Source of the DNA: Halomarina salina
GTDB lineage: Archaea > Halobacteriota > Halobacteria > Halobacteriales > Haloarculaceae
Direction of reading: 5' to 3'
Assembly (NCBI RefSeq): GCF_023074835.1
Contig: NZ_JALLGW010000001.1
Span: 1,922,001-1,986,000 of the forward strand
Length of the DNA stretch: 64,000 bases
Numbering within the stretch: the stretch's first letter is position 1; every line of letters starts with the position of its first letter. Below, piece by piece: positions 33,033-64,000 of this stretch. Position numbers and translations under genes: made by a program. The notes beneath the pieces were generated by a model. It searched no databases. It worked only from the letters and a program-made list of their open reading frames with translations, and was not told the origin of the DNA.

Positions 33033-33938
33033 ATGACACGCACCGTACTCGTGCCGTCGTCGCTGGTTCGAGAGTCCCGTGACAAACGGGAGGCGACCCG
33101 AAAGCTCGGGTACGTCGCCCGTGCCGCCACGGTCTTTCGAATCGACCGCCTGCTCGTCTATCCGGACCCGGATGGCGAGGGGCGCTGGGACGACGGGTTC
33201 GTCCGCACCGTGCTGGCCTACGCGGCCACACCCCCGTACCTCCGAAAGGAGGCGTGGGGGCGGCGCGACGAACTGGAGTGCGTCGGTGTCCTGCCGCCGC
33301 TCCGCGCTGTCGCGCAGACCGGCTCCGAATCTGACGGTTCGGGGTCGTTAAGACAAGGAATCGTGACCGAGGTCGGACCTGACGGGCGCGTTCGGGTCAA
33401 TTGCGGACTGCAACACCCAGTCTCCCTGCTCGTCCCGCCGCAGATGGCGGTCGAGGAGGGGGAACGCGTGACCATCAGGGTCTCTTCGCGACGGCCGCTC
33501 CGGGCCCGCATCGTCGACGAGTCCCTTCCGGGACTCTCGGTGTGGGGCGAGGAGCTGGATACGGCACTCTCCCGGGCCGACGCTGGCGTCTCTATCGCCG
33601 CGTCGCGCCACGGTGAGGAACTCGACGTCGCACTGCTGGGCGAAGTCGCCCCGCGTGTGCGCGATGGGTTCACTGCCGTCTTCGGCTCGCCGGAACGCGG
33701 CCTCCCGGAGATTCTTGGCGTCCACCCGCCGCGGGTGGACCCACGCGACGAGCAATGGTCGCCCGACGGCGACCACGAGTCCCGAGACGGGGGTACCGAA
33801 CCCGCCGACGGGACGCGGTCTCACGAACCGGCAGCCCGGTTCGACCTCTGGTTGAACACGGTTCCGCACCAGGGCAGCGAGGTGGTGCGAACGGAAGAAG
33901 CACTGTTCGCCACCCTCGCCTGCCTCAACCTGAGGTAA
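33033..33938 (+). CDS. SPOUT-family RNA methyltransferase (putative uridine-N3 type)
   Basis: A 301-residue protein of the COG2106 group, which is linked to rpl3 in many archaea. VLVPSSLVRESRDKREATRKLGYVARAATVFRIDRLLVYPD is the N-terminal SPOUT strand-helix, TPPYLRKEAW the family signature and an inserted OB-like barrel lies at about 105-165 (RQGIVTEVGPDGRVRVNCG). The C-terminal EVVRTEEALFATLACLNL is the knot closure. Predicted to methylate rRNA, by analogy to the eukaryotic C9orf114/SPOUT1 relatives. It is first in the operon; rpl3 starts 3 nt after its stop. Confidence 0.85.
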   Translation: MTRTVLVPSSLVRESRDKREATRKLGYVARAATVFRIDRLLVYPDPDGEGRWDDGFVRTVLAYAATPPYLRKEAWGRRDELECVGVLPPLRAVAQTGSESDGSGSLRQGIVTEVGPDGRVRVNCGLQHPVSLLVPPQMAVEEGERVTIRVSSRRPLRARIVDESLPGLSVWGEELDTALSRADAGVSIAASRHGEELDVALLGEVAPRVRDGFTAVFGSPERGLPEILGVHPPRVDPRDEQWSPDGDHESRDGGTEPADGTRSHEPAARFDLWLNTVPHQGSEVVRTEEALFATLACLNLR

Positions 33939-51577: not shown

Positions 51578-52156
51578 ATGCGGAATCGTCTGGAGACGGT
51601 CGTACTCGGCATCATAGGGAGCATCATCACATATTTCATTCTCCCGTTCCTTCCCACGACCCCTACTGCTGTTGACTTCCTTCAGTACGGGAACGACCCT
51701 CGGGTTCGGTTTGTCTTGTTTCTCGCCGTGGTTTGGTACGGTCTCTGGCGTGGCCTCGATGCATTTCGGAACCGACGAGCAGCGAAGAAGCGTGGCTCTG
51801 GCGTCTATACGTTCAATATGGGGCAGCGAGAAATCAGATTCGTCGACTGGTCGGGCGTCAGACGGCACTTCGGCGTGGACTGGGAGGTGACGTACGGGTC
51901 GACAATGATTGGTAAGGACTCGATGGCTCGCGTCGATGGTCCGTATTGCCCCGAGTGTGGGACGGAGCTGATGAAACACGAACAAGAGCGTTACATCCAG
52001 TGGAACCGAAAGATGTGGAAATGCCCCGGCTGTGGCTTCAAGCACGCGCGGCCCAAGGAGTTCCTCTACGAGGAGCGAGAGGCGGTGGCCAAGGTCGTTG
52101 AGCGTGACCAGGAGGTAGAGACGAACCGACTTGATGACCTCGCCCCCCCGAGCTGA
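51578..52156 (+). CDS. Membrane protein with C-terminal zinc ribbon
   Basis: A 192-residue protein. Two transmembrane helices (about 7-24 and 41-57) are followed by a cytoplasmic domain. It ends in a zinc ribbon with Cys pairs YCPECGTEL and KCPGCGFKH separated by about 25 residues. A helical acidic tail completes it. ATG 51578 (MRNRLETVVLGIIGS) is chosen because a CCTTTTTGTCG box lies about 30 nt before it. The family is not recognised. Confidence 0.75.
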   Translation: MRNRLETVVLGIIGSIITYFILPFLPTTPTAVDFLQYGNDPRVRFVLFLAVVWYGLWRGLDAFRNRRAAKKRGSGVYTFNMGQREIRFVDWSGVRRHFGVDWEVTYGSTMIGKDSMARVDGPYCPECGTELMKHEQERYIQWNRKMWKCPGCGFKHARPKEFLYEEREAVAKVVERDQEVETNRLDDLAPPS

Positions 52157-52266
52157 ACGAGAACGAGGGGTGACCGTCTCGGACCGTGGTCAGCGGGCAC
52201 CCCACCGTTGAGCTCTCGCCGACTACGAGGGAGACGTTTTTATCGATTCTTCACCCTGGTGTGGGT

Positions 52267-52845
52267 ATGACTGTTGATGGATATGACACCTATATTCCCG
52301 AATTCACTCCAAACGAAGAGGCTCCGGACGCATCGTTTATCCGAGGTAACCTCTCGAAGCGGTTTGATAGGATTGACCGAATGGCTGCGGAGTACAGCGA
52401 GCTATCTGATGCGTTCTTCGACGGCGAACAGACAGTCACAGAGGTGGAAACATCGAAAGTGTTAGAGCTGCAGAATGGGTTGGATGATGAGCTCCGACTG
52501 TTCTTCGTAATCGCGAACGCGACGTTCAATTTCAACTGCGCCTCTATCGCCTACCAGTATCTCGTTCGGCCAGAGCTTCGGACGGGGGCGCTTCTGGAGT
52601 TATTTTTAGAAGAGGTTCCACAAGACGCACTGGAGCAGATGTTGGTTCGGACGGGGTTACTCGGAACAACGTTGGTCGGACACATGTCCAATATTCAAGG
52701 GAAGCGGGCGATGTTCTCTCATGACGTAGTTGTTACCTCGGATTGGGAGGGGACGTTGCGTCCGTGGGCGTCCCGTACGTTGCGTATCAACGAAGCATTG
52801 TACGACTTCAATCCACGCGAGAGTATCGAAGGGGAGATGGAGTGA
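52267..52845 (+). CDS. Hypothetical soluble helical protein
   Basis: A 192-residue protein, mostly helical by composition (FDRIDRMAAEYSELSDAFFDGEQTVTEVETSKVLELQNGLDDELRLFFVIANATFNFN... TGALLELFLEEVPQDALEQMLVRTGLLGTTLVGHM). No motif or membrane segment is clear. A TTTTTATCG box about 30 nt upstream of ATG 52267 supports this start. It follows the zinc-ribbon membrane gene by 110 bp. Function unknown. Confidence 0.7.
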   Translation: MTVDGYDTYIPEFTPNEEAPDASFIRGNLSKRFDRIDRMAAEYSELSDAFFDGEQTVTEVETSKVLELQNGLDDELRLFFVIANATFNFNCASIAYQYLVRPELRTGALLELFLEEVPQDALEQMLVRTGLLGTTLVGHMSNIQGKRAMFSHDVVVTSDWEGTLRPWASRTLRINEALYDFNPRESIEGEME

Positions 52846-53057
52846 GCGAGGTGGTCTCTCTATCGTAGCTCCGCTGTTCCACCAGTCTACCTCAGCTGAC
52901 TCAGATACACCACGTAACGCCAGTACGTCACTACCGTCATCACAGCCACCGTAGTTCACCATGCCAGCGACGATATCCCAACGCGCGCGTTGGTTCACAA
53001 ACGTGAAACGCTCCTTCCGGACGCCGTGCCCAGGGCGTTGCATCGATTGCCGGTACT

Positions 53058-53082
53058 GATAGACGTAGAGCGTGAGTCTATC
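53058..53082 (-). repeat. Hairpin module class I, minus orientation
   Basis: Perfect arms GATAGAC/GTCTATC with an 11-nt loop; flanking bases extend the stem to 9 bp (53056-53084). On the minus strand the loop reads TCACGCTCTAC. It begins 8 bp downstream of the stop of the minus-strand membrane gene (53091-53606) and is in the sense orientation of that gene. Confidence 0.85.
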
Positions 53083-53090
53083 AGAGGCTA

Positions 53091-53606
53091 TCACTCCTCT
53101 TGCAACGGGATACTGTGGTCTCTCAATACGCGTTTGCCCGTTTCGAACTGCTGTTGGGCTCCGAATCCATGCATATCCATGTACACCTGCCTGACCTGTG
53201 ATTCATCATCGTACACGATGCGAAAGCGGGGACTCCTGATGCCCTTCGCGGACCGTATCGAGACGTAATTCACTCTCTCTAACTCGATTGGCGTCTCAAG
53301 GGTGAACGTCGACTGGTAGAGGTTAAATCCCGCGATTGCCACGACTGGAACGCCAATGATAATCAGATTCCGAACCGCTCGCTCCCGGTTGACCAAGTAG
53401 ATGCCGGGGTCGACAATGAGCCCTATCAGCGTCGAGACCACGATGAAGAGGGCGCTCACGCAGAGCGTGGCGACGATGAGTTTGTGCTGTCGGTAGTGGC
53501 GTCTGAGCGGTTTGAGGCGTTGCGTCTCGAAGTGAAGCGCTCCGTTCTCGACCCACAGGTAGCCATTTCGATAGTGGAACCCCGACTGTGATTCGCGGTC
53601 TGGCAT
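53091..53606 (-). CDS. Two-helix membrane protein with PH-like C-terminal part
   Basis: A 171-residue protein. A soluble N-terminus (HYRNGYLWVENGALHFETQRLKPLRRHYR) resembles the strand of a small beta domain; helices lie at about 43-66 (LIVATLCVSALFIVVSTLIGLIV) and 82-98 (NLIIIGVPVVAIAGFNL). The C-terminus (PIELERVNYVSIRSAKGIRSPRFRIVYDD... VYMDMHGFGAQQQFETGKRVLRDHSIPL) looks like a PH/GRAM-like barrel. A membrane sensor or scaffold is possible, but this is only inference. A hairpin module follows its stop. Confidence 0.7.
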   Translation of the reverse strand: MPDRESQSGFHYRNGYLWVENGALHFETQRLKPLRRHYRQHKLIVATLCVSALFIVVSTLIGLIVDPGIYLVNRERAVRNLIIIGVPVVAIAGFNLYQSTFTLETPIELERVNYVSIRSAKGIRSPRFRIVYDDESQVRQVYMDMHGFGAQQQFETGKRVLRDHSIPLQEE

Positions 53607-53694
53607 CTGTTGTGTATCGTCGCACGCCTGTTCAAGAAATAATATCTCGCATTAGAGAGACCGTGCCAGCGACGGTCAGTACCACGAAGGAGGT

Positions 53695-53719
53695 GATACA
53701 CACGCGGCACAAGTCTATC
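53695..53719 (-). repeat. Hairpin module class II, minus orientation
   Basis: Arms GATACAC and GTCTATC (one C-C mismatch) around the 11-nt loop ACGCGGCACAA, which on the minus strand is TTGTGCCGCGT. It lies between the divergent membrane gene (ends of its promoter region) and the recombinase gene at 53813. A weak minus-strand hydrophobic frame (53632-53730) overlaps it. Confidence 0.7.
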
Positions 53720-53777
53720 AGTTGAATCAGCGAATATCGGGCGAAATTAACGCATGGACTGGTGCGGACGCGGGCCC

Positions 53778-53786
53778 ATATGATTT
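53778..53786 (+). promoter_or_regulatory. Candidate TATA box of the recombinase gene
   Basis: ATATGATTT, centred about 31 nt before ATG 53813, is the only well-spaced AT-rich box. It supports the ATG start in preference to the TTG at 53798. Confidence 0.45.
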
Positions 53787-53812
53787 GATTCGAGACATTG
53801 TTCGAAGCAATC

Positions 53813-54655
53813 ATGACGGTCCGCCCAACGCGTCTGGGTGCGATGTCTCAGCCCCATCGCGGAGGCCCGGTCCCTCCGTACGACGGTGCAGAGCGTACAG
53901 ACCACGTGACCGAAGCTCCCTCGACAGCCCGCTCGGGCCGTGAGTTCTGGCGTGACCACCTGACCGGCACTGCCTCGACAACCACCTCGAAGGAGGACGC
54001 GCTCACCGACCGCCAGTTCCAGTTACTGTTGGAGGGAGCGCGTCGCCTCGACGACCCGTTCGCGCGGCAGGCGCGGTTCGTCATCTTCGCGACTGGTCGG
54101 TTGGGGATGCGAGCGGGCGAAGTCACCCATATGACCGCCGAGTGGATTGACTGGCGCGAGAAGACGATTCACGTTCCCTCGTTCGACCGCTGTACGAAGG
54201 GCCGTGGTGGCAATGGCCCCTGTGGATACTGCCGCGAGCAGGCTCAGTCGATAGCGGCCAACAACGAGGACATCACCGTCGAGCAGGCACTGTCGACGCG
54301 CTGGGCTCCGAAGACGGCCGCCGGAGCGCGGGCGATACCGTTCGACTTCGAGACGCGTGTCGAGATGACCGTTGAACGATTCTTCGAAGCATATGACACG
54401 TATCCGCACTCGTGTGCGAGCATCAACCGCCGGGTGAATCGCGCCGCGGAGGCAGCCGATGACCTCGACAGCCAGCGGGTTTACCCCCATGGTCTCCGCG
54501 CGACCGCGAGTACGTTCCACGCGGCGCGGGGACTCACCGGATTACCGCTCCAGTCGTTCATGGGCTGGGAGAAGCTCGCCACCGCCGAGACCTACCTCAA
54601 CGGAACGACCGAAGCGACCCGCCGCGCCCTCCGCTCGGTTCACTCCTCGCGGTAG
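53813..54655 (+). CDS. Tyrosine recombinase (site-specific integrase)
   Basis: A 280-residue protein. Catalytic residues are in order: the first Arg in GRLGMRAGEVTHM (about residue 105), the HxxR box HGLRATASTF (near 227) and the Tyr in GWEKLATAETYLNGT (near 262). A Cys-rich insertion DRCTKGRGGNGPCGYCREQ after the first Arg is typical of a haloarchaeal integrase group and may bind zinc. The family cuts and joins DNA through a 3'-phosphotyrosine. It marks this region as mobile or formerly mobile. No attachment site next to it is evident. Confidence 0.9.
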   Translation: MTVRPTRLGAMSQPHRGGPVPPYDGAERTDHVTEAPSTARSGREFWRDHLTGTASTTTSKEDALTDRQFQLLLEGARRLDDPFARQARFVIFATGRLGMRAGEVTHMTAEWIDWREKTIHVPSFDRCTKGRGGNGPCGYCREQAQSIAANNEDITVEQALSTRWAPKTAAGARAIPFDFETRVEMTVERFFEAYDTYPHSCASINRRVNRAAEAADDLDSQRVYPHGLRATASTFHAARGLTGLPLQSFMGWEKLATAETYLNGTTEATRRALRSVHSSR

Positions 54656-54695
54656 CTCCCACGCTTTATTCCGCCGAAAGTTGCGCGATTCAACT

Positions 54696-54720
54696 GATTG
54701 ACTCGTGCCGCGAGTGTATC
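54696..54720 (+). repeat. Hairpin module class II
   Basis: Arms GATTGAC and GTGTATC around loop TCGTGCCGCGA; two flanking pairs (CT/AG) lengthen the stem. It lies between the convergent recombinase (stop 54655) and the small protein ending at 54719; the right arm overlaps that gene's stop codon. Confidence 0.65.
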
Positions 54721-54895
54721 AGTCTCGATTCCGCTTGACGCGGAGTATCTCCACATCGTAGCCTCCTCCGTGCGGAGTCGTGACTGCATATCCTCCTTCC
54801 ACATTGACTCCATTACGTTCAGCGGCGTTGATGAGACTGCTCAGTTTGTCGTGCAACGCCGCCTCGCTGTCGATGGATTCTGTCGGTTCGGACAT
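54719..54895 (-). CDS. Small protein family member 1 (58 residues)
   Basis: The protein has the pattern EAALHDKLSSLINAAERNGVNVEGGYAV... GGGYDVEILRV. Two other proteins in this region (55313-55483 and 59551-59724) share the same order: an aL...l...A..nGvdVeG core and a terminal YDv strand. So the three are paralogues. The predicted structure is one amphipathic helix followed by two or three strands. There is no zinc site or membrane segment. ATG at 54893-54895. Function unknown. Its stop overlaps a hairpin module. Confidence 0.75.
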   Translation of the reverse strand: MSEPTESIDSEAALHDKLSSLINAAERNGVNVEGGYAVTTPHGGGYDVEILRVKRNRD

Positions 54896-55240
54896 AGGCT
54901 GGCTTTGAACGAGTGGTCGACGAGTCAGAAACACGTTTCAACGAATCCGGCGTTCTCGGCGGCGTGCTACGGTGTGAATGAACGCTCCGCACTCGTTCCC
55001 GCCTGTATGCACACTTGAAATAAATAAAAATATGGCATGGTCAGTCATGCCACGACAGCAAACGGGGGGATGGGAGCCACGCCCACCTGCATGACATGGG
55101 GGCAGTGGGCATAATCGGAGCTAACGTGCTACTGACACTTGCCCCCATTCGGGTATGGCCGTGAGTGTATGTAAATCTGCGCTACTCCCGTCTTCGAGGA
55201 CTCTACCCCATCACTGAAGATACCGCCCCGATACCGTAGT
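54896..55240. other. 345-bp intergenic region with palindromes
   Basis: An AT-rich block (AAATAAATAAAAATATGG, 55018-55035) is followed by a palindrome TGGCATG-GTCAGT-CATGCCA (55033-55052). A 9-bp inverted repeat ATGGGGGCA (55096-55104) with TGCCCCCAT (55140-55148) spans a 22-codon frame (MGAVGIIGANVLLTLAPIRV...) that starts at its left arm. I cannot decide whether that frame is expressed. No other gene is seen. Confidence 0.4.
55033..55052. repeat. Palindrome GGCATG-GTCAGT-CATGCC, copy 1
   Basis: A 7-bp perfect stem with a 6-nt loop, directly after an AT-rich TATA-like block. A diverged copy GGCGTG-GTCATC-CATGCC is at 55543-55560, 500 bp away. Possible operator pair or small mobile palindrome. 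Confidence 0.5.
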
Positions 55241-55303
55241 GATATTCTCTCCCGCTCGCTCTCTCGAACGGACCGTTGGATAGAGCTGTGCCGTGGGTGT
55301 ACC
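55241..55303 (+). repeat. Composite hairpin element (class I + 13 nt + class II), decayed
   Basis: Class I part 55241-55265 (arms GATATTC and CTCTCTC, loop TCTCCCGCTCG), a 13-nt spacer GAACGGACCGTTG, and class II part 55279-55303 (arms GATAGAG and GTGTACC, loop CTGTGCCGTGG). Stem pairing is weak, but module length, loop words and spacing match the other composite at 56276-56338. It ends 9 bp before the stop of the minus-strand small protein 2. Confidence 0.6.
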
Positions 55304-55312
55304 AGTGGGGAA

Positions 55313-55483
55313 CTACCGACGCACTGGATTCACCTGTACATCGTAGAGCGACCGGTGAGTCGTCGTCTCGCACTCATAGGACCCGGCGACATCGATGCCG
55401 TTCTTCTCGGCTTCGTCTAAGAGGTCGGTCAAACGCGTTCGAAGCCCGTCTTGGTCGTGGATTGGCTGTGAATCGTCGGTCAT
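55313..55483 (-). CDS. Small protein family member 2 (56 residues)
   Basis: A paralogue of the proteins at 54719-54895 and 59551-59724: DGLRTRLTDLLDEAEKNGIDVAGSYECE... YDVQVNPV. The N-terminus MTDDSQPIHDQ is polar. The ATG at 55481-55483 is supported by a CTAATACTG box about 33 nt upstream on the minus strand (55513-55521). A decayed composite hairpin element lies just downstream of the stop. Confidence 0.75.
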   Translation of the reverse strand: MTDDSQPIHDQDGLRTRLTDLLDEAEKNGIDVAGSYECETTTHRSLYDVQVNPVRR

Positions 55484-55542
55484 GCGTACCTCGGCGGACA
55501 CCCCGCTCGTCACAGTATTAGGGGGTAGCCAGTTAACACTGT

Positions 55543-55560
55543 GGCGTGGTCATCCATGCC
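55543..55560. repeat. Palindrome GGCGTG-GTCATC-CATGCC, copy 2
   Basis: Six-base arms with one G-T pair and the same 6-nt loop start (GTCA) as copy 1 at 55033-55052. It lies upstream of small protein 2, between it and the divergent Bat-type HTH remnant. Confidence 0.45.
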
Positions 55561-55655
55561 TTGATTCATCAGACTGTGACTCCCACTTTTAACCGCCATT
55601 GTATCAATCATAAAACAGACTCAAGTAGAACGGGCGATAAGGAAGTAGCGCCAGT

Positions 55656-55889
55656 ATGAGTGAAGACTATCCAAACGGGGTGCCGCTCACCCACCGAGAA
55701 CAGGAACTGCTTCAGACCGCACTGAATAGTGGATAATTCGAGGTCCCTCGCCGGACGAGCACGGTTGCACTCGCTGACGAGGTGGGGGCTTCCTCACGCG
55801 AGGTCTCCGAGCAACTCCATCAGGCCATGGGGAAGGTCCTCCGGCATTCGAACTGGACTGTATCATCCTCCGTCACTGGGAACGAATGA
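55656..55889 (+). pseudogene. Bat-type HTH gene interrupted by an in-frame TAA
   Basis: From ATG 55656 the frame reads MSEDYPNGVPLTHREQELLQ, TALNSG, then TAA (55734-55736), then FEVPRRTSTVALADEVGASS, REVSEQLHQAMGKVL and a short tail before TGA 55887-55889. This is the HTH_10 domain of bacterio-opsin-activator-like regulators, whose consensus here is GYFEVPR. The TAA stands exactly where TAC or TAT for Tyr is expected. So a single base change has truncated a 77-residue stand-alone HTH protein. Readthrough cannot be excluded. Confidence 0.75.
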
Positions 55890-55901
55890 GAACAACTGAC
55901 T

Positions 55902-55951
55902 GAGGGACCCACGCACTGGGTCTCTCGTCGGACTCGTGCTACGTGTGTATC
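55902..55951 (+). repeat. Composite hairpin element (class I directly followed by class II)
   Basis: Class I 55902-55926: arms GAGGGAC and GTCTCTC pair fully (one G-T), with loop CCACGCACTGG; its third stem pair is G-C where most copies have T-A, a compensated change. Class II 55927-55951: arms GTCGGAC and GTGTATC (weak), loop TCGTGCTACGT. Total 50 bp with no spacer. It begins 12 bp after the stop of the interrupted HTH gene, in sense orientation. Confidence 0.75.
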
Positions 55952-56275
55952 GCGTCAAACGTATCGAGTTGCCGGATGCTATCGAGAGTTGGACACTCAA
56001 TCTGTCATCCGAAATCAATAAATGCCGTCGGTATTGTACCAAAACGCGACGACGACACCCCAATCGGAATGAGGTTGTCAGAGGCACACTCCTGTGGGGA
56101 GTCTGTCGTCAGGAACTAATCGTTTCGAGTAACGGACAAGCATCCTCACACTCGCCACCTGTTGTCCGTTCCAACGAGTGTTCCTACCCACGGATTTGGG
56201 TCAGATACTCATAACGCTACCGACAAGTATAGGACTCGAACAGTATCTCCTAATTGTGTTGCTTTACTCAGGAGT
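55952..56275. other. 324-bp region without a gene
   Basis: Plus- and minus-strand frames here are rich in Arg, Cys and Ser with no third-position bias. They look non-coding. Nothing else is recognised except AT-rich patches near 56020 and 56255. Confidence 0.5.
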
Positions 56276-56338
56276 GATACACTCACGCTCAGTCTCTATC
56301 GAATAGGCCGAGTGAGCGACGTGTACCGCGAGTGTATC
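56276..56338 (+). repeat. Composite hairpin element (class I + 13 nt + class II)
   Basis: Class I 56276-56300 (GATACAC ... CTCTATC, loop TCACGCTCAGT), spacer GAATAGGCCGAGT, class II 56314-56338 (GAGCGAC ... GTGTATC, loop GTGTACCGCGA). The outer ends GATACAC and GTGTATC are perfect complements of each other, although the inner stems are imperfect. Confidence 0.75.
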
Positions 56339-56698
56339 GCCTGCAAATTCTACTTTCGATGGAATTTCATGTCGTCTTACTCTCAACGCAATCCTCAGTG
56401 TAGATTTGTCTAACAGTACTTTCCGTGAAACTATCGGACACAATTATGCAGATTCCCCCACAACCGTTACTTGGGTGCCTCGTTCGGATGCGGGAGGATG
56501 GGGACGAGGAATGCTGGAAGAGACTCCCAACGTGCTCCGGGCGAGTGGCCTAACGCGGGGACAGTGCCTCTGACAGCCTTTTCCCCCGTTTCCGCACGTA
56601 ATCGAGATGCCTGCAACGAGTATCAAGGCTCTCCCCAAATACTCGGGTATGACGTGGCTTCTCAACCCAATCTGGCGCAGCTTCGAGTACATGGGTCT
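56339..56698. other. 360-bp region without a convincing gene
   Basis: Short frames exist, for example from ATG 56608 (MPATSIKALPKYSGMTWLLN...) running into the next hairpin element, but they lack codon bias and a recognisable family. Nothing else is seen. Confidence 0.45.
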
Positions 56699-56757
56699 GA
56701 TAGACTCACGCTCTCTGTCTATCGAACGGACAAGCGAGAGTTGGTTGTGTGTCTATC
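56699..56757 (+). repeat. Hairpin module class I with diverged class II tail
   Basis: Class I 56699-56723 is perfect (GATAGAC / GTCTATC, loop TCACGCTCTCT). It is followed by GAACGGACAAGCGAGAG and ends in a further GTCTATC (56751-56757), a longer and altered second module. It precedes the lipoprotein gene at 56813. Confidence 0.8.
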
Positions 56758-56812
56758 GGGATGTCTGCGAATCTCCCGAACAATAATGTTTTTGTAGAAA
56801 TGTTTTCAACTC

Positions 56813-57373
56813 ATGGTCCCTGCCCGCTCTCGCTCTCTCATCCTCTTGGTCGCCTGTGTAGTCCTGTTAGCAGGTTGCACAGGGTTCGGAGGGACGCCGT
56901 CACCAACCACATCGACGACAGCGTCCGCTATCAGTGCCGAAACCACATCGTTCGCCTTCGACCCAGCCTATGCGAGTGATGAACAGGGGGAGCCCGACTA
57001 CTTCGAACATCCGGCAGATTCCCGGGAAGCTGTTCAGGTCAGGTGGTCAGACGACCACCTCATCGTCTCGGGGGCCACTATCGGTATCGGCGACCAGAAC
57101 TGCATCGACGTACAACTCATAGAGGCGCGAGCAGTGAACGCGACCGCGCTCAGCGTCGTCATCGAAAACGATGCAGTCGTCCCATCGGACAAAAGCGGGT
57201 GTAATGGGTCTGCAGCCCCCTACGAATACCGGGCGAACATCAGTATCTCGGGGAACTCTCCCGAGCAGGTGATTGTGACGCATCGAGCTGGTGGAACTGG
57301 AGAGACACAGTTCGAGACGGTCGTTCGGCGGGCGCAGAACGGAACCGTCATCCCGTCGATTCAGGACCCCTGA
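56813..57373 (+). CDS. Lipoprotein of unknown function
   Basis: A 186-residue protein. The signal ends in a lipobox VVLLAGC (Cys 21), followed by a Thr/Ser/Pro linker. Residues about 45-180 are beta-rich (EAVQVRWSDDHLIVSGATIGIGDQNCIDVQLIEARAVNATALSVVIEND... YRANISISGNSPEQVIVTHRAGG), with two Cys (105 and 139) that may form a disulfide. An AT-rich AATAATGTTTTTGTAG at 56781-56796 is the probable promoter. Predicted to be membrane-anchored on the outside. Confidence 0.8.
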   Translation: MVPARSRSLILLVACVVLLAGCTGFGGTPSPTTSTTASAISAETTSFAFDPAYASDEQGEPDYFEHPADSREAVQVRWSDDHLIVSGATIGIGDQNCIDVQLIEARAVNATALSVVIENDAVVPSDKSGCNGSAAPYEYRANISISGNSPEQVIVTHRAGGTGETQFETVVRRAQNGTVIPSIQDP

Positions 57374-57418
57374 ACCGATACGGCCCCGCTCACCACGACG
57401 GAACCTACTCTTGGAGAT

Positions 57419-57443
57419 GAAACACTCACGCTCTGGGTCAACC
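57419..57443 (+). repeat. Hairpin module class I, decayed stem
   Basis: GAAACAC, loop TCACGCTCTGG, GTCAACC: the loop is intact but only three of seven stem pairs remain. It lies 46 bp after the lipoprotein stop, in sense orientation. Confidence 0.6.
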
Positions 57444-57521
57444 GATTGCCAGAACGGTGGGACGTACGCTCCATGCATTCTGAGCTCTGAGACATTACAG
57501 TCTCGGCTTCGGGGTGCCCTG

Positions 57522-57830
57522 TCACAGTGGTGGTTCCGATGCCGTGATGATGATTCGCTCCGGCGTGACACCGACATTATAGTCACAGTACTCGAACCAC
57601 ACAGAAACGGAGGTCGCTCCCGAAGTACTATCGTCCATTAGCAAGGCGTCAAGTGCCCCCGGGTCAACCGCCTCGTACAGCGGCTCGGGGAGTTTTCGTG
57701 GGTCACACTCCATGACTTCTGCTAGTGCATTGACGACAGCGATGCTCCTTGGTACATCTCGGTCCACCTCGAATACTGCGCGGTTGGGCTGTTCCGAATC
57801 GTCGTGTGGTGTCAACTCACTCTCGGCCAT
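57522..57830 (-). CDS. HalOD1 output-domain protein
   Basis: A 102-residue protein. SIAVVNALAEVMECDPRKLPEPLYEAVDPGALDALL followed by VSVWFEYCDYNVGVTPERIII is the haloarchaeal HalOD1 domain, found in proteins thought to act downstream of two-component or light-sensing signalling. The N-terminal 30 residues are acidic. ATG 57828-57830 (MAESELTPHDDSEQPN) is chosen because the frame further upstream is not family-like. Its neighbour on the same strand is a DUF7344 regulator, a frequent pairing. Confidence 0.85.
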   Translation of the reverse strand: MAESELTPHDDSEQPNRAVFEVDRDVPRSIAVVNALAEVMECDPRKLPEPLYEAVDPGALDALLMDDSTSGATSVSVWFEYCDYNVGVTPERIIITASEPPL

Positions 57831-58275
57831 CGACGGGCCCCCACGCTCCGACGCATCGTCGCGCGACGGTGTCGCTGAGTGTAGTCGACTCGCACTGGAA
57901 TACTGTTGAACTGAAAGACGCTCGTGCCTCTGACATAATTTTTCTGAACGAGTAGCCGTGGTACAGGGACAGTTCTCAGAGAAGTCGGTCTCCACAGGGG
58001 GATGTCACGGTCGGCAGGAACCGACGGTGAGTCGTTCGTATCGTGTACCCGCAGCCCCACGGATAGCTGTTATCGTTAGCCTCACCGGCCTCTATCCCCT
58101 CTTCAAGACCGACAGGAGCACTGGAGTGTACTAGGGTAGCGATTGACTCCCCTCGGGGACGACCTCACAGTGAGTGCGGTCGTGAACGATGCAACGAGAG
58201 ACTGGCTATCAGCCATAGCCCACCCTCTGAGTCGTTCGTTCAGTCGAATCGACGGAGTGGTCAGTCGGCTGAAAG
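57831..58275. other. 445-bp intergenic region
   Basis: No gene is seen. A perfect hairpin GGCTAT-CAGCC-ATAGCC (58204-58220) lies 56 bp downstream of the DUF7344 gene and could end its transcript. A short CCCCTC-GGGG palindrome lies near 58150. AT-rich CATAATTTTTCTGA at 57934-57947 may belong to the HalOD1 promoter. Confidence 0.4.
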
Positions 58276-58596
58276 TTAGAGGAGCGGGTCGAGGTCATCG
58301 ATGTGGTCACCTGTCGTGACACGCTCGTTCTCGAAATCGAACTCGACGACATCGGCGTCGGCGAGCTTCGGCAGGTCCCGATGGAGCAGAGCAACGACGA
58401 CGCGTTTCTGGTGCTCCTCGCCGACGTCACTGGGTTGGATGTCTGATTCACGGGCAACGAGTTCAGTCGCGAGGCTGCTGACATCCCACTCCTCGCTCTG
58501 ATTCAACAGGAGGCGGAGTGTCTCGCGACGAAGCTCCTCGGCCACGAGGTCGTATGCCTCGTCCTTCGAGAGGTCATCGGGTGTCCACTCATTCAT
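58276..58596 (-). CDS. DUF7344-type winged-helix regulator
   Basis: A 106-residue protein with a winged-helix pattern: DEAYDLVAEELRRETLRLLLNQSEEWDVSSLATELVARESD, then EEHQKRVVVALLHRDLPKLADADVVEFDFENERVTTGDHIDDLDPLL. The helix-wing phrase VVVALLHRDLPKLADADVVEFD is characteristic of the haloarchaeal DUF7344 group of small transcription factors. The ATG is at 58594-58596. It shares strand with the HalOD1 gene 445 bp away. Confidence 0.85.
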   Translation of the reverse strand: MNEWTPDDLSKDEAYDLVAEELRRETLRLLLNQSEEWDVSSLATELVARESDIQPSDVGEEHQKRVVVALLHRDLPKLADADVVEFDFENERVTTGDHIDDLDPLL

Positions 58597-58657
58597 ATCT
58601 GAACATACTTGCTGCTGAACTGGTAGGACTTGGGGCCGCTGCCGCAAGGGACTGACT

Positions 58658-58682
58658 GATAGACTTACGCTCTAGATGTTTC
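58658..58682 (+). repeat. Hairpin module class I, decayed right arm
   Basis: GATAGAC, loop TTACGCTCTAG, ATGTTTC, followed by GAACGG as in other copies. Only four stem pairs remain. It lies upstream of the DUF7344 gene, on the opposite strand, and before the Bat-type gene. Confidence 0.6.
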
Positions 58683-58824
58683 GAACGGTCCGAAGGAAGG
58701 GATAGATAGCATAAGTGGCTATTAAGTCACGATTCTCGAATAATTCGGTTGCAGACTGCCGGTACTTTTATTCTAAATCACATCTTCGACCCTGATATAC
58801 AATGGTGGTCTGTCAGGGGTGTTT

Positions 58825-59547
58825 ATGCTGATGATTGTCGAGTTCACGATTGACCAGCCCACGCTTCTCCAGTCGTTGCGACAGGTACCGTCGACTCGTA
58901 TCACGTGGGAGCAGACCGATACGACGGCCAACGACGAACGACTCATGCTGTTCTGGGCCGAGTCCGACGATTACGACGCCTTCGAGACAGCGATGTACCA
59001 CGACTCAACCGTGACTGCCCCTCGAACGCTTACGAGGTTCAGCGACAGGCGGTTGTATCAGGTCGAACAGGTCGGTGAGGGTGTCGCGCAGTCCATCTAT
59101 CCGACAACCGTGGAGGCCGGAGGAATCATCCAGCAGGGGACGGCGACATACGCGGGCTGGTGGTTTCAGGTCGCCTTCCCCGACAACGACGCGCTCAGGC
59201 ACGTACACGAGACCTGCACGGAACACGACCTCGACTTCTCTCTCGAACGCAAGTACGAGCTCGCCACCGAAGATACCCCTGCAACCAGCTATGGACTCAC
59301 CGAGAAACAACGCGATATGCTCATCCACGCCGTCCAGCAGGGGTACTACGACGTCCCACGGGCGACGTCCCTCGACTGCATCGCAGACGAGCAGGACATC
59401 TCCCACCAAGCCGCCTCGGAACGCCTCCGACGAGCAATCGACGTTCTAGCGCGAAACACGATTGTGACCAGTCGCGAACAGACCGACCAGTCGGCAAAGA
59501 TGGGGAAGGGAGACGAGGCTGGTGATGATAGCCGATGGGCGAACTGA
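58825..59547 (+). CDS. Bat-type (HTH_10) transcriptional regulator
   Basis: A 240-residue protein. Residues 1-155 are the N-terminal sensory-like domain of the bacterio-opsin activator family (MIVEFTIDQPTLLQSLRQVP... WWFQVAFPDNDALRHVHETCTEHDLDFSLERKYEL). Residues 160-215 are HTH_10: GLTEKQRDMLIHAVQQGYYDVPRATSLDCIADEQDISHQAASERLRRAIDVLARN. The start is ATG 58825 or 58831; the upstream GTG is less likely. The stand-alone interrupted HTH at 55656 is a relative. Target genes unknown. Confidence 0.88.
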   Translation: MLMIVEFTIDQPTLLQSLRQVPSTRITWEQTDTTANDERLMLFWAESDDYDAFETAMYHDSTVTAPRTLTRFSDRRLYQVEQVGEGVAQSIYPTTVEAGGIIQQGTATYAGWWFQVAFPDNDALRHVHETCTEHDLDFSLERKYELATEDTPATSYGLTEKQRDMLIHAVQQGYYDVPRATSLDCIADEQDISHQAASERLRRAIDVLARNTIVTSREQTDQSAKMGKGDEAGDDSRWAN

Positions 59548-59550
59548 CGC

Positions 59551-59724
59551 TTACGCTGGCGTGACTGCAGAGACGAGGAGTTCGTAGTCCATCGGCGTCT
59601 CGGTGTCTCGACAGGTCCACGCTCCTTCGACATCGACGCCATGGTGGTGTGCTGACTCAATGATAGCGGCGAACTGGTCGACCAACGCTGCTTCAGTCGT
59701 GATGGGGAGATGTGATTCGTCCAT
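59551..59724 (-). CDS. Small protein family member 3 (57 residues)
   Basis: A paralogue of the proteins at 54719-54895 and 55313-55483: EAALVDQFAAIIESAHHHGVDVEGAWTCR... MDYELLVSAV. ATG 59722-59724 aligns with the other two starts; a further ATG 13 codons upstream would add unrelated residues. It is convergent with the Bat-type gene, with 3 bp between stops. Function unknown. Confidence 0.75.
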   Translation of the reverse strand: MDESHLPITTEAALVDQFAAIIESAHHHGVDVEGAWTCRDTETPMDYELLVSAVTPA

Positions 59725-60193
59725 TCGTTGTAGCTGTGACACCAACGTACTCTCGCCCGCCAACTATGCGATTTTCTGCGCGACGGAAGAACGCCCGCAG
59801 TTGTCTGCATCTCTAGCAACGCCGCTCGGACGAATAGGGACACCGCCTGCGCTGGCAGGACGGTACTGACGGGGGAGAAGGTGGAGATAGCCTCTGACAC
59901 TGCCCGGTCCCCATATTCGTAATAACGTGACAGACACAATAGAATTTTGCCTGCGAATCAATACCGCTCGCCGATTGTGAGCGCCGCGAGTCCACACGGA
60001 GGTAAGTCGACCACTGCTGGCGATACACTCAATAGAGTATGGTTATTGGTACCGGCTGACTCGACGACCGTTCACAGGGTGGAACTGGTCACCTCAGCTG
60101 ACGTGGCAAGACGTGACGAGTCAGACCCCGAGACACTGGCACAGGACGAACAGTTCTGTTAGATGTCGATGAGGTACGAATCGCACGTGTCGA
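59725..60193. other. 469-bp region without a convincing gene
   Basis: A frame ending at 60162 contains VWLLVPADSTTVHRVELVTS and a polar tail, which could be a gene remnant, but no start or family is evident. A half-module GATACACTC occurs at 60022-60030. A promoter for the MazG-like gene is not obvious. Confidence 0.4.
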
Positions 60194-60218
60194 GTTAGAC
60201 CCGTGCTGCGAGTGTATC
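60194..60218 (+). repeat. Hairpin module class II
   Basis: GTTAGAC, loop CCGTGCTGCGA, GTGTATC; five of seven pairs. It lies about 70 bp upstream of the MazG-like gene. Confidence 0.6.
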
Positions 60219-60290
60219 AGCGACACACCGAAACGGAGGCTCTCTCGTCAAACCAGTAGTGCTTCGGGAGAGCCCGCGGTTTCTCAGACC

Positions 60291-60605
60291 ATGGCAGACG
60301 AATACGACAAGCTGGTTCGAGACGACATCCCAGAGATAATCGAAGCGAACGGTGAACGCCCCGTTGTTCACCACGTTGAGGGCGAAGAGTACACACAACG
60401 GCTGCTCGACAAATTAGACGAAGAAGTCGGCGAGTACCGGTCGGACCAGACCGTCGAGGAGTTGGCCGATGTACTCGAAGTTGTCCATGCGCTCTGTGAG
60501 ACCCACGGCGTTGACTGGAGTGAACTCCAACACCAACGAGAACAGAAAGCCGACCGACGGGGACACTTCAAGAACGGAGTCATGCTTGAGCGCGTCGAGA
60601 GATAG
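60291..60605 (+). CDS. MazG-like nucleotide pyrophosphohydrolase
   Basis: A 104-residue protein: YDKLVRDDIPEIIEANGERPVVHHVEGEEYTQRLLDKLDEEVGEYRSDQTVEELADVLEVVHALCETHG. The LDEEVGEY...EELADVLEV pattern is the ExxE...ExxD metal site of the all-alpha NTP pyrophosphatase superfamily (COG4997 type). It probably removes aberrant nucleotides or acts on phosphoribosyl-ATP-like molecules. Its TAG stop (60603-60605) lies inside a hairpin module. Length is typical. Confidence 0.88.
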   Translation: MADEYDKLVRDDIPEIIEANGERPVVHHVEGEEYTQRLLDKLDEEVGEYRSDQTVEELADVLEVVHALCETHGVDWSELQHQREQKADRRGHFKNGVMLERVER

Positions 60606-60621
60606 ACGCTCTCAGTGTATC
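60601..60621 (+). repeat. Hairpin module class I with shortened loop
   Basis: GATAGAC and GTGTATC arms (one G-G mismatch) with a 7-nt loop GCTCTCA in place of 11 nt. The left arm contains the TAG stop codon of the MazG-like gene. Confidence 0.7.
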
Positions 60622-60655
60622 GCTCATCTCGGACTGCTACTAATCATATATCGCA

Positions 60656-61330
60656 CTATCGGTGTTCTCTACCTCTGTCATTTGTCAGCCCGAGCATCTG
60701 TGCCGTTGGAAGTCTCCAGCCGTAGTTAACTGCGGCCAGACGTGTCCCAACGGTTACGACAGCACAGACCGCGACGGCGATACGTTCTGCCCCCATACCA
60801 GCTGTCACTATCCAATAGGCACTCCCACCCAGAACGGCACAACTCGCGTAGAAGTCCTCGAAGAGGATGAACGGCGGCCGGTCCAGTAGAATATCGGCGA
60901 CCGCGCCACCCCCGACCGCGTTAATCGTCGCAATCGCAACGACACCAACGGCCGAGACGCCACTGTCTGTTGCCACAATCGCGCCAGCCGTAGCGAACGC
61001 GGCGAGCCCCACCGCATCAGCAACGAGTGTGAACGGATGGTCCTCTGGAGACCCAAGTACCACACAGACTCCGAGTGCGACCCCCACACCGAGTGCTCCG
61101 AACCCGATTTCGCCCAATGACTGGAGGGCCAGCGGCACGCGATTCACGAGAAGGTCTCGCATCGTCCCCCCGGCGAACGCTGTGGCGAGTCCGACGACGA
61201 CGATTCCGAAGACATCGAAGTCCTCACGGATTGCCTTGGTCGCCCCGACCAGCGCAAACGCGACGAGACCGACTGCGTTCATCACAGTGAACGGGTCAAC
61301 GGGCAACACCCCGGTGAGGTCCTGAATCAC
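60656..61330 (-). CDS. TRIC / UPF0126 family cation channel
   Basis: A 224-residue protein with seven predicted helices. The two UPF0126 repeats show NAVGLVAFALVGATKAIREDFDVFGIVVVGLATAFAGGTMRDLLVNRVPL and ADAVGLAAFATAGAIVATDSGVSAVGVVAIATINAVGGGAVADILLDRPP, each with the conserved GGG-x-D/RD element. Prokaryotic members form trimeric cation channels. GTG 61328-61330 is the best start: it gives MIQDLTGVLPVDPFTVMNAVGL, as in haloarchaeal relatives. An internal ATG at 61280-61282 would cut helix 1. Confidence 0.88.
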   Translation of the reverse strand: MIQDLTGVLPVDPFTVMNAVGLVAFALVGATKAIREDFDVFGIVVVGLATAFAGGTMRDLLVNRVPLALQSLGEIGFGALGVGVALGVCVVLGSPEDHPFTLVADAVGLAAFATAGAIVATDSGVSAVGVVAIATINAVGGGAVADILLDRPPFILFEDFYASCAVLGGSAYWIVTAGMGAERIAVAVCAVVTVGTRLAAVNYGWRLPTAQMLGLTNDRGREHR

Positions 61331-61411
61331 TACGTCGACATATGGAATCGAGAGTATTGAGCCCACGGTATCGGCACACACCGATTGTGGCCCTCTGATA
61401 ACGAGAAAAAA

Positions 61412-61461
61412 GATAGACTCACGCTCTGGGTCTCTCGTTCGGTGGATGCCGCGTGTGTATC
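61412..61461 (+). repeat. Composite hairpin element (class I directly followed by class II)
   Basis: Class I 61412-61436 (GATAGAC / GTCTCTC, one mismatch, loop TCACGCTCTGG) abuts class II 61437-61461 (GTTCGGT / GTGTATC, loop GGATGCCGCGT). Exactly 50 bp, as at 55902-55951. It lies in the divergent spacer between the TRIC gene and the lipoprotein at 61517. Confidence 0.8.
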
Positions 61462-61516
61462 TGTATACGGTGGCCACCACCAGAAGGTACTTGTTCGCCA
61501 ATAGATACCACTTCGT

Positions 61517-61996
61517 ATGAAGCGCCGTGCCCTCCTCGGCCTCTCTGGGGCCGTACTCAGCGGTCTCGCAGGCTGTTCGACGGGAGCGACAGACAGTAGC
61601 GGAGCGCCGAAGCGGGTCGCCACCGGTCCTGCTGGTGGATGTCAGAGCAAAATCACGGCACAGCAGTATCCAGACCCCCCATCGACCCTCACTGAAGAAC
61701 GCGTCGTTGAGTTCGTGAAACGATACGAGCGGGCGCAAATTATCAATCAATCCGCAGGCGACCACGGCAGCCTGAGCGTCCGAATTACGGTTGAGTCCGT
61801 GAGCCAGACGGACGATGGCTGGCTGATTCAGCTTGGGGGCGGTATGTCACAGGAGGGCTGTGGCGACGGAAATTCGTACGTTTCCGACGGCATAGTTGCC
61901 GCTCACTACTTCGTCAACGAAACTGCCGTCTATCGGGCCGATACGTTCGCCGAAACCGCTGGTGACCCGCGGCAGAACGGAACGAAAGTCGCGTAG
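61517..61996 (+). CDS. Tat-type lipoprotein of unknown function
   Basis: A 159-residue protein: MKRRALLGLSGAVLSGLAGC has a twin Arg and a lipobox Cys at 20. The mature part is beta-rich (LSVRITVESVSQTDDGWLIQLGGGMSQEGCGDGNSYVSDGIVAAHYFVNETAVYRADTF), with Cys 42 and 114 possibly disulfide-bonded. It resembles the lipoprotein at 56813 only in general type. A perfect hairpin module follows its stop by 17 bp. Confidence 0.8.
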   Translation: MKRRALLGLSGAVLSGLAGCSTGATDSSGAPKRVATGPAGGCQSKITAQQYPDPPSTLTEERVVEFVKRYERAQIINQSAGDHGSLSVRITVESVSQTDDGWLIQLGGGMSQEGCGDGNSYVSDGIVAAHYFVNETAVYRADTFAETAGDPRQNGTKVA

Positions 61997-62016
61997 ATTC
62001 TGTGCGCCCTCGAATT

Positions 62017-62041
62017 GATAGACCCACGCTCTCTGTCTATC
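62017..62041 (+). repeat. Hairpin module class I, perfect 10-bp stem
   Basis: GATAGAC / GTCTATC with loop CCACGCTCTCT; flanking ATT/AAT extend the perfect stem to 10 bp (62014-62044). It is in sense orientation behind the lipoprotein gene. Confidence 0.9.
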
Positions 62042-62179
62042 AATATGCAGGCCCCAGTCGGCGCACTCTCTGCTTCGCGTCGCTCTTGAACCACTGACAG
62101 CTACGAGCAACCGCGCGGGGAGACTGTGACTATTATGTATTCACACAAGAGTTATACAAAGATAGCAGATTCGTGAGAT

Positions 62180-62671
62180 ATGGAACGACGCACGGTATCG
62201 ATTGTCCTCCTCCTCCTGAGTTTGCCACTGTTCGCAGCCCCTGCAATGTTACCGGTCGAAGACGTTCGAATGCACGACACCACATCCTACCTCGGAGAGA
62301 ACGCCACCGTTACTGACAGCCCCGCTGTCCGGGTCGTCGCCTACGAAAATCTCAGCACCCACGCCCAAGACCTGTACCGGCAAACCCTCGAACACGATGG
62401 CACGTACAGAGTGGCCATCGATGACGGAGCCAGCGATTACAGGTACTACAATGGCAACGGCCAGTTCAAATCACTCGTGATTGAGCGTCCAGCGAACAGT
62501 ACACTGCCACCCGCAGATGAGTCCTATCACCCGCAGTACGAACTCATGACCACATCCACCGTCCGCCCACCACTGTTCTCCGGCGCGTACGTCCCCCAGA
62601 TGATGCTGCTCTTCCTCGCCATCTGTTCGCTTCTCAGCGGGCTGTACCTGTTCTTCAACGACCACGCGTAG
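62180..62671 (+). CDS. Two-helix membrane protein with extracytoplasmic domain
   Basis: A 163-residue protein. An uncleaved signal-like helix (RRTVSIVLLLLSLPLFAAPAML) starts it and a second helix (VPQMMLLFLAICSLLSGLYLFF) ends it. Between them is a polar domain, including NATVTDSPAVRVVAYENLSTHAQDLYRQTLEHDGTYRVAIDDGASDYRYY, with glycosylation-type sequons. Such small proteins with a DLY-x-x-TL-x-x-GTY pattern are common in haloarchaea; role unknown. A hairpin module follows 16 bp after the stop. Confidence 0.75.
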   Translation: MERRTVSIVLLLLSLPLFAAPAMLPVEDVRMHDTTSYLGENATVTDSPAVRVVAYENLSTHAQDLYRQTLEHDGTYRVAIDDGASDYRYYNGNGQFKSLVIERPANSTLPPADESYHPQYELMTTSTVRPPLFSGAYVPQMMLLFLAICSLLSGLYLFFNDHA

Positions 62672-62687
62672 TCACCCGTCGGTATCT

Positions 62688-62712
62688 GATACACCTACGC
62701 TCTGCGTGTATC
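62688..62712 (+). repeat. Hairpin module class I, compensated stem
   Basis: GATACAC / GTGTATC, perfect 7-bp stem, loop CTACGCTCTGC. Relative to GATAGAC / GTCTATC the fifth pair is C-G for G-C, so both arms changed together. It follows the membrane gene in sense orientation and is followed by GAACGG. Confidence 0.9.
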
Positions 62713-62819
62713 GAACGGCTGAGCGAGAGAATCGACTGCCGAACCGAGCGTACCTCCCACTCAAAGACGTGACTCACCCCTATCAAGGGTTATACCCACC
62801 GACCTCTACTCTCTTCGAC

Positions 62820-64000
62820 ATGAACGATAGCGACGACAATTCGCTCGCTCCCGACTCAGAGACGGGCGCACCACTTCGACTGGAGGTGAAGCCGACGTAC
62901 TCGAACGTGGTCGGGCGGAATGACGCACGCGTCGGCCCTGACGTGATACAAGTCCTCGAACTCAGTCCGGGTGATTGTGTCGAACTCGCGGGCGACAGGA
63001 CGACTGTGGCCACGGTGTGGCGCACTGATGTCGACGACTGGGGCACCGGGACGGTCCTGCTCGACGAGTTTACCCGCGAGAACGCAGGCGTCAGCGTCGG
63101 TGAGACAATTGACGTTCGACCCGCCATCGTCAGCGATGCGACGTCGCTCACCGTTCAGTCCTCGACGGACCGTCCAATATCGTTCGATTCCTCCGAGATG
63201 AATCGGGTCAGGGACGGCCTGTCGTACCGCGTCCTCACGGAGGAGGATATCGTCTCGATTCGAGATGCTTCGGGGTCGGCAGCTTCTCCCTCCCACCCGT
63301 GGGCGGTTCGTGTCCACACCACCGACCCACGCGGTCCGGTCCGTGTGACGCCTGAGACGACTATCGAGTTTCAGGACCCTCAGTCGGATACTGACCGCGC
63401 GACAGTTCCCGACTCGGGGACGGACGACGCGGTCCGACTCCCGGTGAGAGAGATGTACGAGGGGAGCGTGGGAAACAACGCTGCCTGCATTGGGCATAGC
63501 GTAATGGAGCTTCCACCCTACCATCAGAACAACCGTGCAGACCAGACGCTGTACGTCAGACCGGGCGACTACGTCGAACTCACCGGCGAGAACACGACCG
63601 TTGCGCGGGTCTCACCCACCGATAAAGCAGACTGGGATACTGAAACCATTCTTCTCGACGAGTTTACCCGTGAGAACGCGGGCGTCGCTATCGATGACAC
63701 GGTCGTGGTTCGGCCAGCAACCGTCGAGGACGCCACCTCGATAACCGTTCACTCCTCGACGGACCGTCCGGTGTCGTTCGATGAGGAGACCGTGGCGGTG
63801 GTCGGAGAGCGCCTGTACAAGTGGGTCCTTGTGGAAGGAGACATCGTCCCACTACCGGGCACGGACGGCCCAGTGCCGGTCTCCGAGGCCAGTGCGGTGC
63901 GGGTCGTCGACACCGACCCAGCCGGACCGGTCCGTGTGACCTCAGTGACTGACATCGAGATGCAGGACCCTCACTCGGGCGACTCATCCCACTACCGAAG
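62820..64000 (+). CDS. Protein with tandem Cdc48/VAT N-domains (3' end beyond window)
   Basis: The frame is open from ATG 62820 to the window end (393 residues seen). Residues 19-102 match the double-psi barrel of Cdc48/VAT N-domains (LRLEVKPTYSNVVGRNDARV... LELSPGDCVELAG... LLDEFTRENAGVSVGETIDVRPA). Residues 103-187 match the second N-subdomain (DRPISFD... GPVRVTPETTIEFQDP). The same set recurs at about 230-385 (RPGDYVELTGENTTVARV, LLDEFTRENAGVAIDDTVVVRPA, GPVRVTSVTDIEMQDP). No AAA domain is seen yet; whether one follows cannot be told. Confidence 0.8.
   Translation, partial: MNDSDDNSLAPDSETGAPLRLEVKPTYSNVVGRNDARVGPDVIQVLELSPGDCVELAGDRTTVATVWRTDVDDWGTGTVLLDEFTRENAGVSVGETIDVRPAIVSDATSLTVQSSTDRPISFDSSEMNRVRDGLSYRVLTEEDIVSIRDASGSAASPSHPWAVRVHTTDPRGPVRVTPETTIEFQDPQSDTDRATVPDSGTDDAVRLPVREMYEGSVGNNAACIGHSVMELPPYHQNNRADQTLYVRPGDYVELTGENTTVARVSPTDKADWDTETILLDEFTRENAGVAIDDTVVVRPATVEDATSITVHSSTDRPVSFDEETVAVVGERLYKWVLVEGDIVPLPGTDGPVPVSEASAVRVVDTDPAGPVRVTSVTDIEMQDPHSGDSSHYR

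Follow-up and report, generated by a model that had tools for sequence, protein, structure and literature searches.

The DNA analysed here (the window, 64,000 nt) is positions 1922001-1986000 of contig C1 in the 4.46-Mb genome of a haloarchaeon, a Halomarina. In its right-hand part, 25-bp modules separate small genes and adjoin a gene for a tyrosine recombinase (53798-54655). We propose that these modules are double-stranded DNA recombination sites of a system that captures and shuffles gene cassettes and is run by this recombinase; judged from sequence comparison, the probability of this reading is about 0.85. Halomarina appears to collect and shuffle genes much like bacterial integrons, the textbook bacterial gene-collecting device, by means of an unrelated enzyme.

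The initial annotation of the window had listed 18 dispersed modules (7-nt arm, 11-nt loop, 7-nt arm) and interpreted them as hairpins with compensated stems. All 18 modules are present (one, at 60601-60621, is 21 bp long), and the copy at 55241-55265 is badly degenerate. Using two consensus strings, we found 13, 17 and 18 sites in 52,001-64,000 at up to three, four and five mismatches, respectively, and none in 1-52,000 at up to five; the reported absence from the first 48 kb was thus correct. As a test of chance origin, 60 first-order shuffles of the window yielded 0.12 sites on average and one at most, against 18 in the real sequence. The modules form a single designed family with two real loop classes and some weak stems, the loops being better conserved than the stems, as had been proposed. 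Simple dispersal did not hold up: the modules are ordered in oriented arrays that separate genes and adjoin the recombinase. It had been overlooked that class II is inverted class I, that the two classes pair up as 50- or 63-bp composites and that ~100 more copies lie elsewhere in the genome. The short copy at 60601-60621 is a genuine reduced site with a 94%-identical counterpart at C1:1864710. The window array terminates just past the window edge, at C1:1986042-1986066.

A simple site is 25 bp long and consists of an R box (GATASACYCRCG), a short spacer and an L box (GTSTMTC). With box names following attC usage, the type I site (class I) is R''-L'' and the type II site (inverted class II) is L'-R'; a 4-bp part of the spacer reads CTCT in type I and GCAC in type II. 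Neighbouring cassettes are joined by composites of the order R''L''-VTS-L'R' (VTS, variable terminal structure). The 63-bp form is GATASAC-YCACGCTCTNN-GTSTMTC-GAACGGACCGAGT-GAGCGAC-GCGTGCCGCGA-GTSTATC, and the 50-bp form is the same minus the central 13 bp. Each cassette has its R boxes inward, its two ends being a type II and a type I site. The space between cassettes is itself a module with the L boxes inside, mostly 0-13 bp long and once containing the recombinase. Arrays and platforms end in a lone half-site, which borders on flank B (...GTGACTCAGCT) if it is of type II and on flank A (ANTACCGGCAATCGATGCA) if it is of type I. In the genome regions that we fetched, A-type flanks border 20 of 92 type I ends (B-type, 4) and B-type flanks 14 of 71 type II ends (A-type, 2). 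At some loci, two cassettes are separated by a long linker made of A and B fused together. A conserved CTTTCTTTCA / GAAATWAA-like motif lies ~30 bp outside L' in flank B (for example at window 54658-54695) and could be a promoter directed toward the recombinase or an accessory binding site. At C4:89126-89175, two type I sites stand back to back with their R boxes touching, an empty cassette.

Sites in the whole genome were counted by a genome search together with the fetched stretches. The site pattern matched 93 times, versus once for the reversed pattern, and a search with a site model gave 115 hits; overall, there are ~110 copies. The fetched regions contain 92 type I and 71 type II half-sites. 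Arrays are found at C2:602-621 kb, C4:84-94 kb, C1:1861-1868 kb and C1:1976-1986 kb (the window), plus a dozen short ones. Neighbouring type I sites less than 5 kb apart are on the same strand in 63 of 67 cases. The intervals between sites usually hold one gene and sometimes a few: across 83 intervals, the median length is 659 bp and the longest open reading frame (ORF) fills 77% (median). ORFs of at least 120 amino acids (aa) cross a site 27 times, whereas 84 crossings are expected (minimum 64 in 200 shifts), a roughly threefold depletion. Longest ORFs were used as genes; codon-usage gene calling with GC-rich window sequence as training set is unsuited to the atypical cassette genes. A lipobox protein is encoded in 25 intervals, a membrane-like protein in 35 and a Bat/HTH_10 regulator in 7. 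Gene direction is mixed (59 along the array, 24 against it), and therefore the sites are oriented by the array and not by the gene.

The recombinase gene sits between two diverging B-flanked half-sites. The catalytic residues R, K, HxxR, W and Y are all kept, which indicates an intact tyrosine recombinase. It is the sole copy in the genome and the only recombinase associated with the sites. Within the genus, genomes with a close relative of the enzyme contain 89, 28 and 30 sites, versus 0-8 in the others. The integron-integrase profile TIGR02249 gave no hit, the XerA/XerC profiles matched weakly and far under the cut-off (27.3 versus 220 bits), and a PDB search returned no match. The closest characterised relative is phiCh1 Int1 (45% identity over 76% of the protein), which lies within an invertible tail-fibre segment (PMC6210493, PMC4284463). 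When phiCh1 was compared with plasmid pNMAG03, which has the opposite orientation, the inversion around int1 ended in GATGGAC-N11-GTCCATC sites. These sites and those of Halomarina are both 25 bp long, with 7-11-7 geometry and a similar box. Together with the Int1 homology, this match indicates that recombinase family and site geometry belong together. Many partial GATGGAC-N11-GTCCATC repeats occur within the tail-fibre coding repeats of phiCh1 and pNMAG03, and several alternative inversion points are therefore possible there.

A large C4 array has its orthologue in the H. oriensis platform that carries the recombinase; in C4, the gene is reduced to fragments. Fragments of both ends of the deleted gene are found between two B-flanked half-sites at C4:84052-84254, and ~12 cassettes remain in the orphan array beside them.

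Comparison between loci and species revealed extensive cassette turnover. At C1:1861-1868 kb, ~10 cassettes occupy a place where H. oriensis has one unrelated cassette; the outer flanks match H. oriensis, on one side up to the first base of R''. This platform is lacking in three other relatives, one of which has just 94 bp between the flanking homologies. C2:401-405 kb holds different cassettes in each of three species. Single cassettes also recur: a 325-bp cassette is 99% identical at C2:602.6 and C1:884.6 kb, the TRIC cassette has 94% identical copies at unrelated loci (the window and the C1:1861-1868 kb array), and a 901-bp cassette recurs at an unrelated place (93%). The cassette at C1:2270 kb matches an H. 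oriensis contig at 93%, above the 83-88% of most shared flanking loci. In pairs sharing a cassette, homology ends inside the sites and differences start in the spacer/L box. The R box and CTCT (or GCAC) travel with the cassette while the L box and flank stay, and the exchange would therefore fall between them. In the TRIC pair, the junction VTS was left behind when the cassette moved. Whole inserts can also sit either way round: flanks A and B are fully swapped at two platforms and partly swapped at two. Other Natrialbaceae share an ArsR gene, which was considered as a case of cassette movement and rejected, there being no sites around the gene in those genomes.

From this layout, turnover and position of the borders, we infer the following chemistry. 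The spacer/L region would be where the recombinase exchanges strands. Two sites of one type, I or II, are direct repeats of each other, and recombination between them would remove or add a cassette plus junction; between inverted sites, it would turn one or many cassettes around. The outcome would be a shuffling gene store rich in small lipoproteins, membrane proteins and regulators.

Several points weigh against this interpretation. The pairing of recombinase and sites is suggested by adjacency, co-occurrence and Int1 homology, and the crossover position by only about five pairs. The different spacers (CTCT versus GCAC) would block a classical identical-overlap crossover between types I and II. 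Homologous recombination of flanks may have transferred cassettes in some cases. A convincing ORF is missing from some intervals (55952-56275 is an example), and two or more genes occur in a few. Finally, many composites of the window array are degraded, and for this reason the array may be partly fossil.

Among the alternatives, pure inversion (phase variation) fares best, although we consider it unlikely. Here, the recombinase would resemble phiCh1 Int1 or a shufflon enzyme and only flip segments between inverted sites to switch expression, and the arrays would grow by duplication and ordinary recombination. The nearest characterised enzyme is indeed an invertase, and each cassette is flanked by inverted sites. 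Moreover, the four platforms with fully or partly swapped flanks fit this reading. However, the wholesale difference in content at the same platform between species and the presence of single cassettes at unrelated loci require gain and loss, and the shared strand of neighbouring type I sites is not expected under free flipping.

A transposon family resembling miniature inverted-repeat transposable elements or insertion sequences (IS), with the sites as terminal inverted repeats, is very improbable. Single-gene units do lie between inverted 25-bp ends (53058-53719; C1:884 kb), and Haloquadratum provides a precedent of small mobile repeats with terminal inverted repeats and without target duplications (PMC3119063). 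Against this, the interiors are mutually unrelated, a transposase is absent and the compared cassette ends show no target-site duplication; in addition, array orientation is fixed, the junctions are bipartite and the sites co-occur with a tyrosine recombinase. The modules are not IS fragments.

A further alternative, in line with the initial annotation, is that the modules are hairpins selected for their stem, whether in RNA or in DNA; they might serve as terminators, as processing signals or as small RNAs. Several copies do have perfect arms, and one composite folds better than 98% of shuffles; the others do not outdo most shuffles (z 0.21, -1.29). For 30 full sites under a hairpin model, paired cells amounted to 68.1% both in the observed and in the shuffled alignments, and the covariation score was 0.053 versus 0.055. 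The fifth bases of the arms (the key G/C position) pair in 13 of 25 full-length sites; since ~12 are expected from base counts under independence, they vary almost independently. A long attC-like fold of the 30 sites gave no more pairing or covariation than shuffles. We therefore rejected the covarying hairpin, and the attC-like folded strand fared no better. An Rfam search of the sites gave no match, so that the modules belong to no known Rfam family, and nothing pointed to a stable RNA hairpin. Conservation concerns the DNA sequence, not pairing: GATASACYCACGCTCT on one side and GTSTMTC on the other. A better reading takes the inverted arms for the pair of boxes that a tyrosine recombinase binds, and the "loop" for one extended box plus a putative strand-exchange spacer. 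With orientation also tracking the array rather than the adjoining gene, the hairpin explanation is the least probable of all.

The recombination system proposed here resembles several known ones. It shares with integrons a dedicated tyrosine recombinase adjoining a gene-cassette array, a bipartite R''-L''-VTS-L'-R' site between (usually) one-gene cassettes, one strand per array and recombinase-less arrays elsewhere in the genome. In contrast to integrons, the recombinase falls outside the integron-integrase profile, the boxes and spacers are different and nothing points to selection on a single strand in folded form: the box layout fits attC, whereas covariation is absent and folding weak. 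Integrons have a single attI beside intI and cassettes each with its own downstream attC, whereas in Halomarina two B-flanked half-sites surround the recombinase, which lies between two diverging arrays; arrays terminate on either side in half-sites bordered by different flanks (A or B), and inserts occur in both orientations. Archaeal integrons reported to date are IntI-based and come from metagenome-assembled genomes. Those of Ghaly et al. 2022 are likewise IntI-based, and the main text of that paper does not mention haloarchaea (PMC9668308).

Acinetobacter dif (pdif) modules likewise have genes between inversely oriented short sites, an alternation of C and D modules (one box internal, then the other), inversions and module replacement (PMC13141974). 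These modules use the host XerC/XerD and a site of two boxes with a 6-bp spacer (PMC13141974), whereas Halomarina has its own Int1-type recombinase and a 7-11-7 site; its alternate modules are mostly 0-13 bp spacers, and the system is chromosomal with many platforms. The Int1 inversion system of phiCh1, phiH1 and ChaoS9 has a homologous recombinase (45%) between inverted sites (PMC6210493) of the same 25-bp geometry, with the box GATGGAC in place of GATASAC. It comprises one invertible viral segment and no cassettes, as opposed to ~110 sites and dozens of genes. Shufflons (Rci) also combine multiple inverted short sites with one tyrosine recombinase. Their segments are partial coding ends, whereas in Halomarina whole genes are gained and lost. 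The Halomarina system would thus work like an integron and be built like dif modules, and on present evidence it is related by descent to neither.

Among ~85,000 species, exact matches to the Halomarina site pattern were confined to Halomarina rubra and H. oriensis (own-genome records were possibly excluded), and viral contigs gave no match. Generic repeat finding around distant recombinases returned coding-repeat noise only. A box-spacer-box scan identified a second site family, TGCTGAAT-N11-ATKCAGCA, which adjoins recombinases 45-50% identical in many haloarchaea. Of 293 genomes examined in the order, 175 contain it, and none of the listed genomes gave a control hit. Its sites have either of two spacers, AGAGGATGA or GGGCGCGA, and the two types are paired 66 bp apart in many haloarchaeal genomes. 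One genome has 57 pattern hits (both strands, palindromic sites counted twice). The Natrinema salinisoli plasmid NZ_CP084470.1 contains 18 such sites, none inside a coding sequence; single annotated genes lie between composites, and an integrase fills the space between two sites. A methyltransferase cassette of this plasmid has an 87% identical copy in Halalkalicoccus (another family), where it stands alone between two sites.

The Halomarina genome has three copies of the second family (C5:35260-35286(-), C5:47450-47476(+) and C1:1443315), one of them just within a GATASAC-type platform; the two systems may coexist or nest in this genome.

Taken more widely, these data make it somewhat likelier than the contrary that haloarchaea evolved their own integron counterpart, in which Int1-family recombinases would act on family-specific inverted pairs of double-stranded sites (GATASAC for Halomarina; TGCTGAAT for Natrinema and many other haloarchaea). 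Independent of IntI/attC, this device would capture, store and trade single genes between genera and between families. In the open-access literature, we found no description of haloarchaeal integrons, shufflons or gene cassettes, or of Halomarina integrases. If real, this separate system, present in haloarchaea that are in culture, would mean that gene capture was solved a second time and independently, and could explain part of the heavy haloarchaeal gene exchange. Its cargo comprises dozens of unstudied small surface and regulatory genes, and the system could supply recombination tools.

Table 1. Sites, flanks and genes in window positions 53034-64000
Feature	Position	Strand	Evidence or remark
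Flank A (AGTACCGGCAATCGATGCAACGCC), outer end of leftward one-gene element	53034..53057	-	A-type flank statistics
Type I simple site (R''-spacer-L''), right end of leftward element	53058..53082	-	0 mismatches
Cassette ORF, 171 aa, membrane-like, sole gene of leftward element	53091..53606	-	
Type II simple site (L'-spacer-R'), left end of leftward element	53695..53719	-	
Flank B (ends TGATTCAACT), separating the recombinase from the leftward element	53720..53770	-	B-type flank statistics
Tyrosine recombinase, 285 aa	53798..54655	+	PF00589; invariant R105, K172, H231/R234, W257, Y266
Flank B of rightward array	54658..54695	+	
Type II simple site, left end of rightward array	54696..54720	+	R half: 0 mismatches
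Small ORF, cassette 1, ~57-71 aa	54719..54934	-	
Degenerate 63-bp composite (class I 55241-55265 + class II 55279-55303)	55241..55303	+	Model hit C1:1977255-1977302
Small ORF, cassette 2, similar to cassette 1 ORF	55313..55513	-	
50-bp composite site	55902..55951	+	
63-bp composite site	56276..56338	+	61 bits
Composite site, degenerate second half	56699..56757	+	32 bits over 56699-56740
Cassette ORF, lipoprotein	56813..57373	+	LAGC lipobox
Type I half-site	57419..57443	+	
Cassette ORF, HalOD1 domain	57522..57830	-	PF18545
Cassette ORF, DUF7344	58276..58596	-	PF24035; 79% DNA match to cassette C2:608876-609348
Type I half-site, degraded VTS	58658..58682	+	
Cassette ORF, Bat/HTH_10 regulator (family in 7 cassettes)	58819..59547	+	PF04967, PF15915
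Type II half-site	60194..60218	+	
Cassette ORF, weak MazG-like match under curated cut-off	60291..60605	+	
Reduced 21-bp junction site	60601..60621	+	Counterpart C1:1864710
Cassette ORF, TRIC/glycine-transporter family	60656..61405	-	PF03458; 94% copy in C1:1861-1868 kb array
50-bp composite site	61412..61461	+	
Cassette ORF, lipoprotein	61517..61996	+	
Type I half-site	62017..62041	+	
Cassette ORF, secreted/membrane protein	62180..62671	+	
Composite site, degraded second half	62688..62741	+	33.5 bits
Last cassette ORF, 417 aa, extends beyond window	62769..64000	+	Terminal type I site + flank A at C1:1986042

A family of ~57-aa cassette proteins recurs in several cassettes, at 54719-54934(-), 55313-55513(-) and C1:423 kb; these are small and often encoded on the anti-array strand. 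Elsewhere in the window, 33379-33478(+) matches the Rfam L4-Archaeoglobi ribosomal leader at 70.7 bits (cut-off 34.5).

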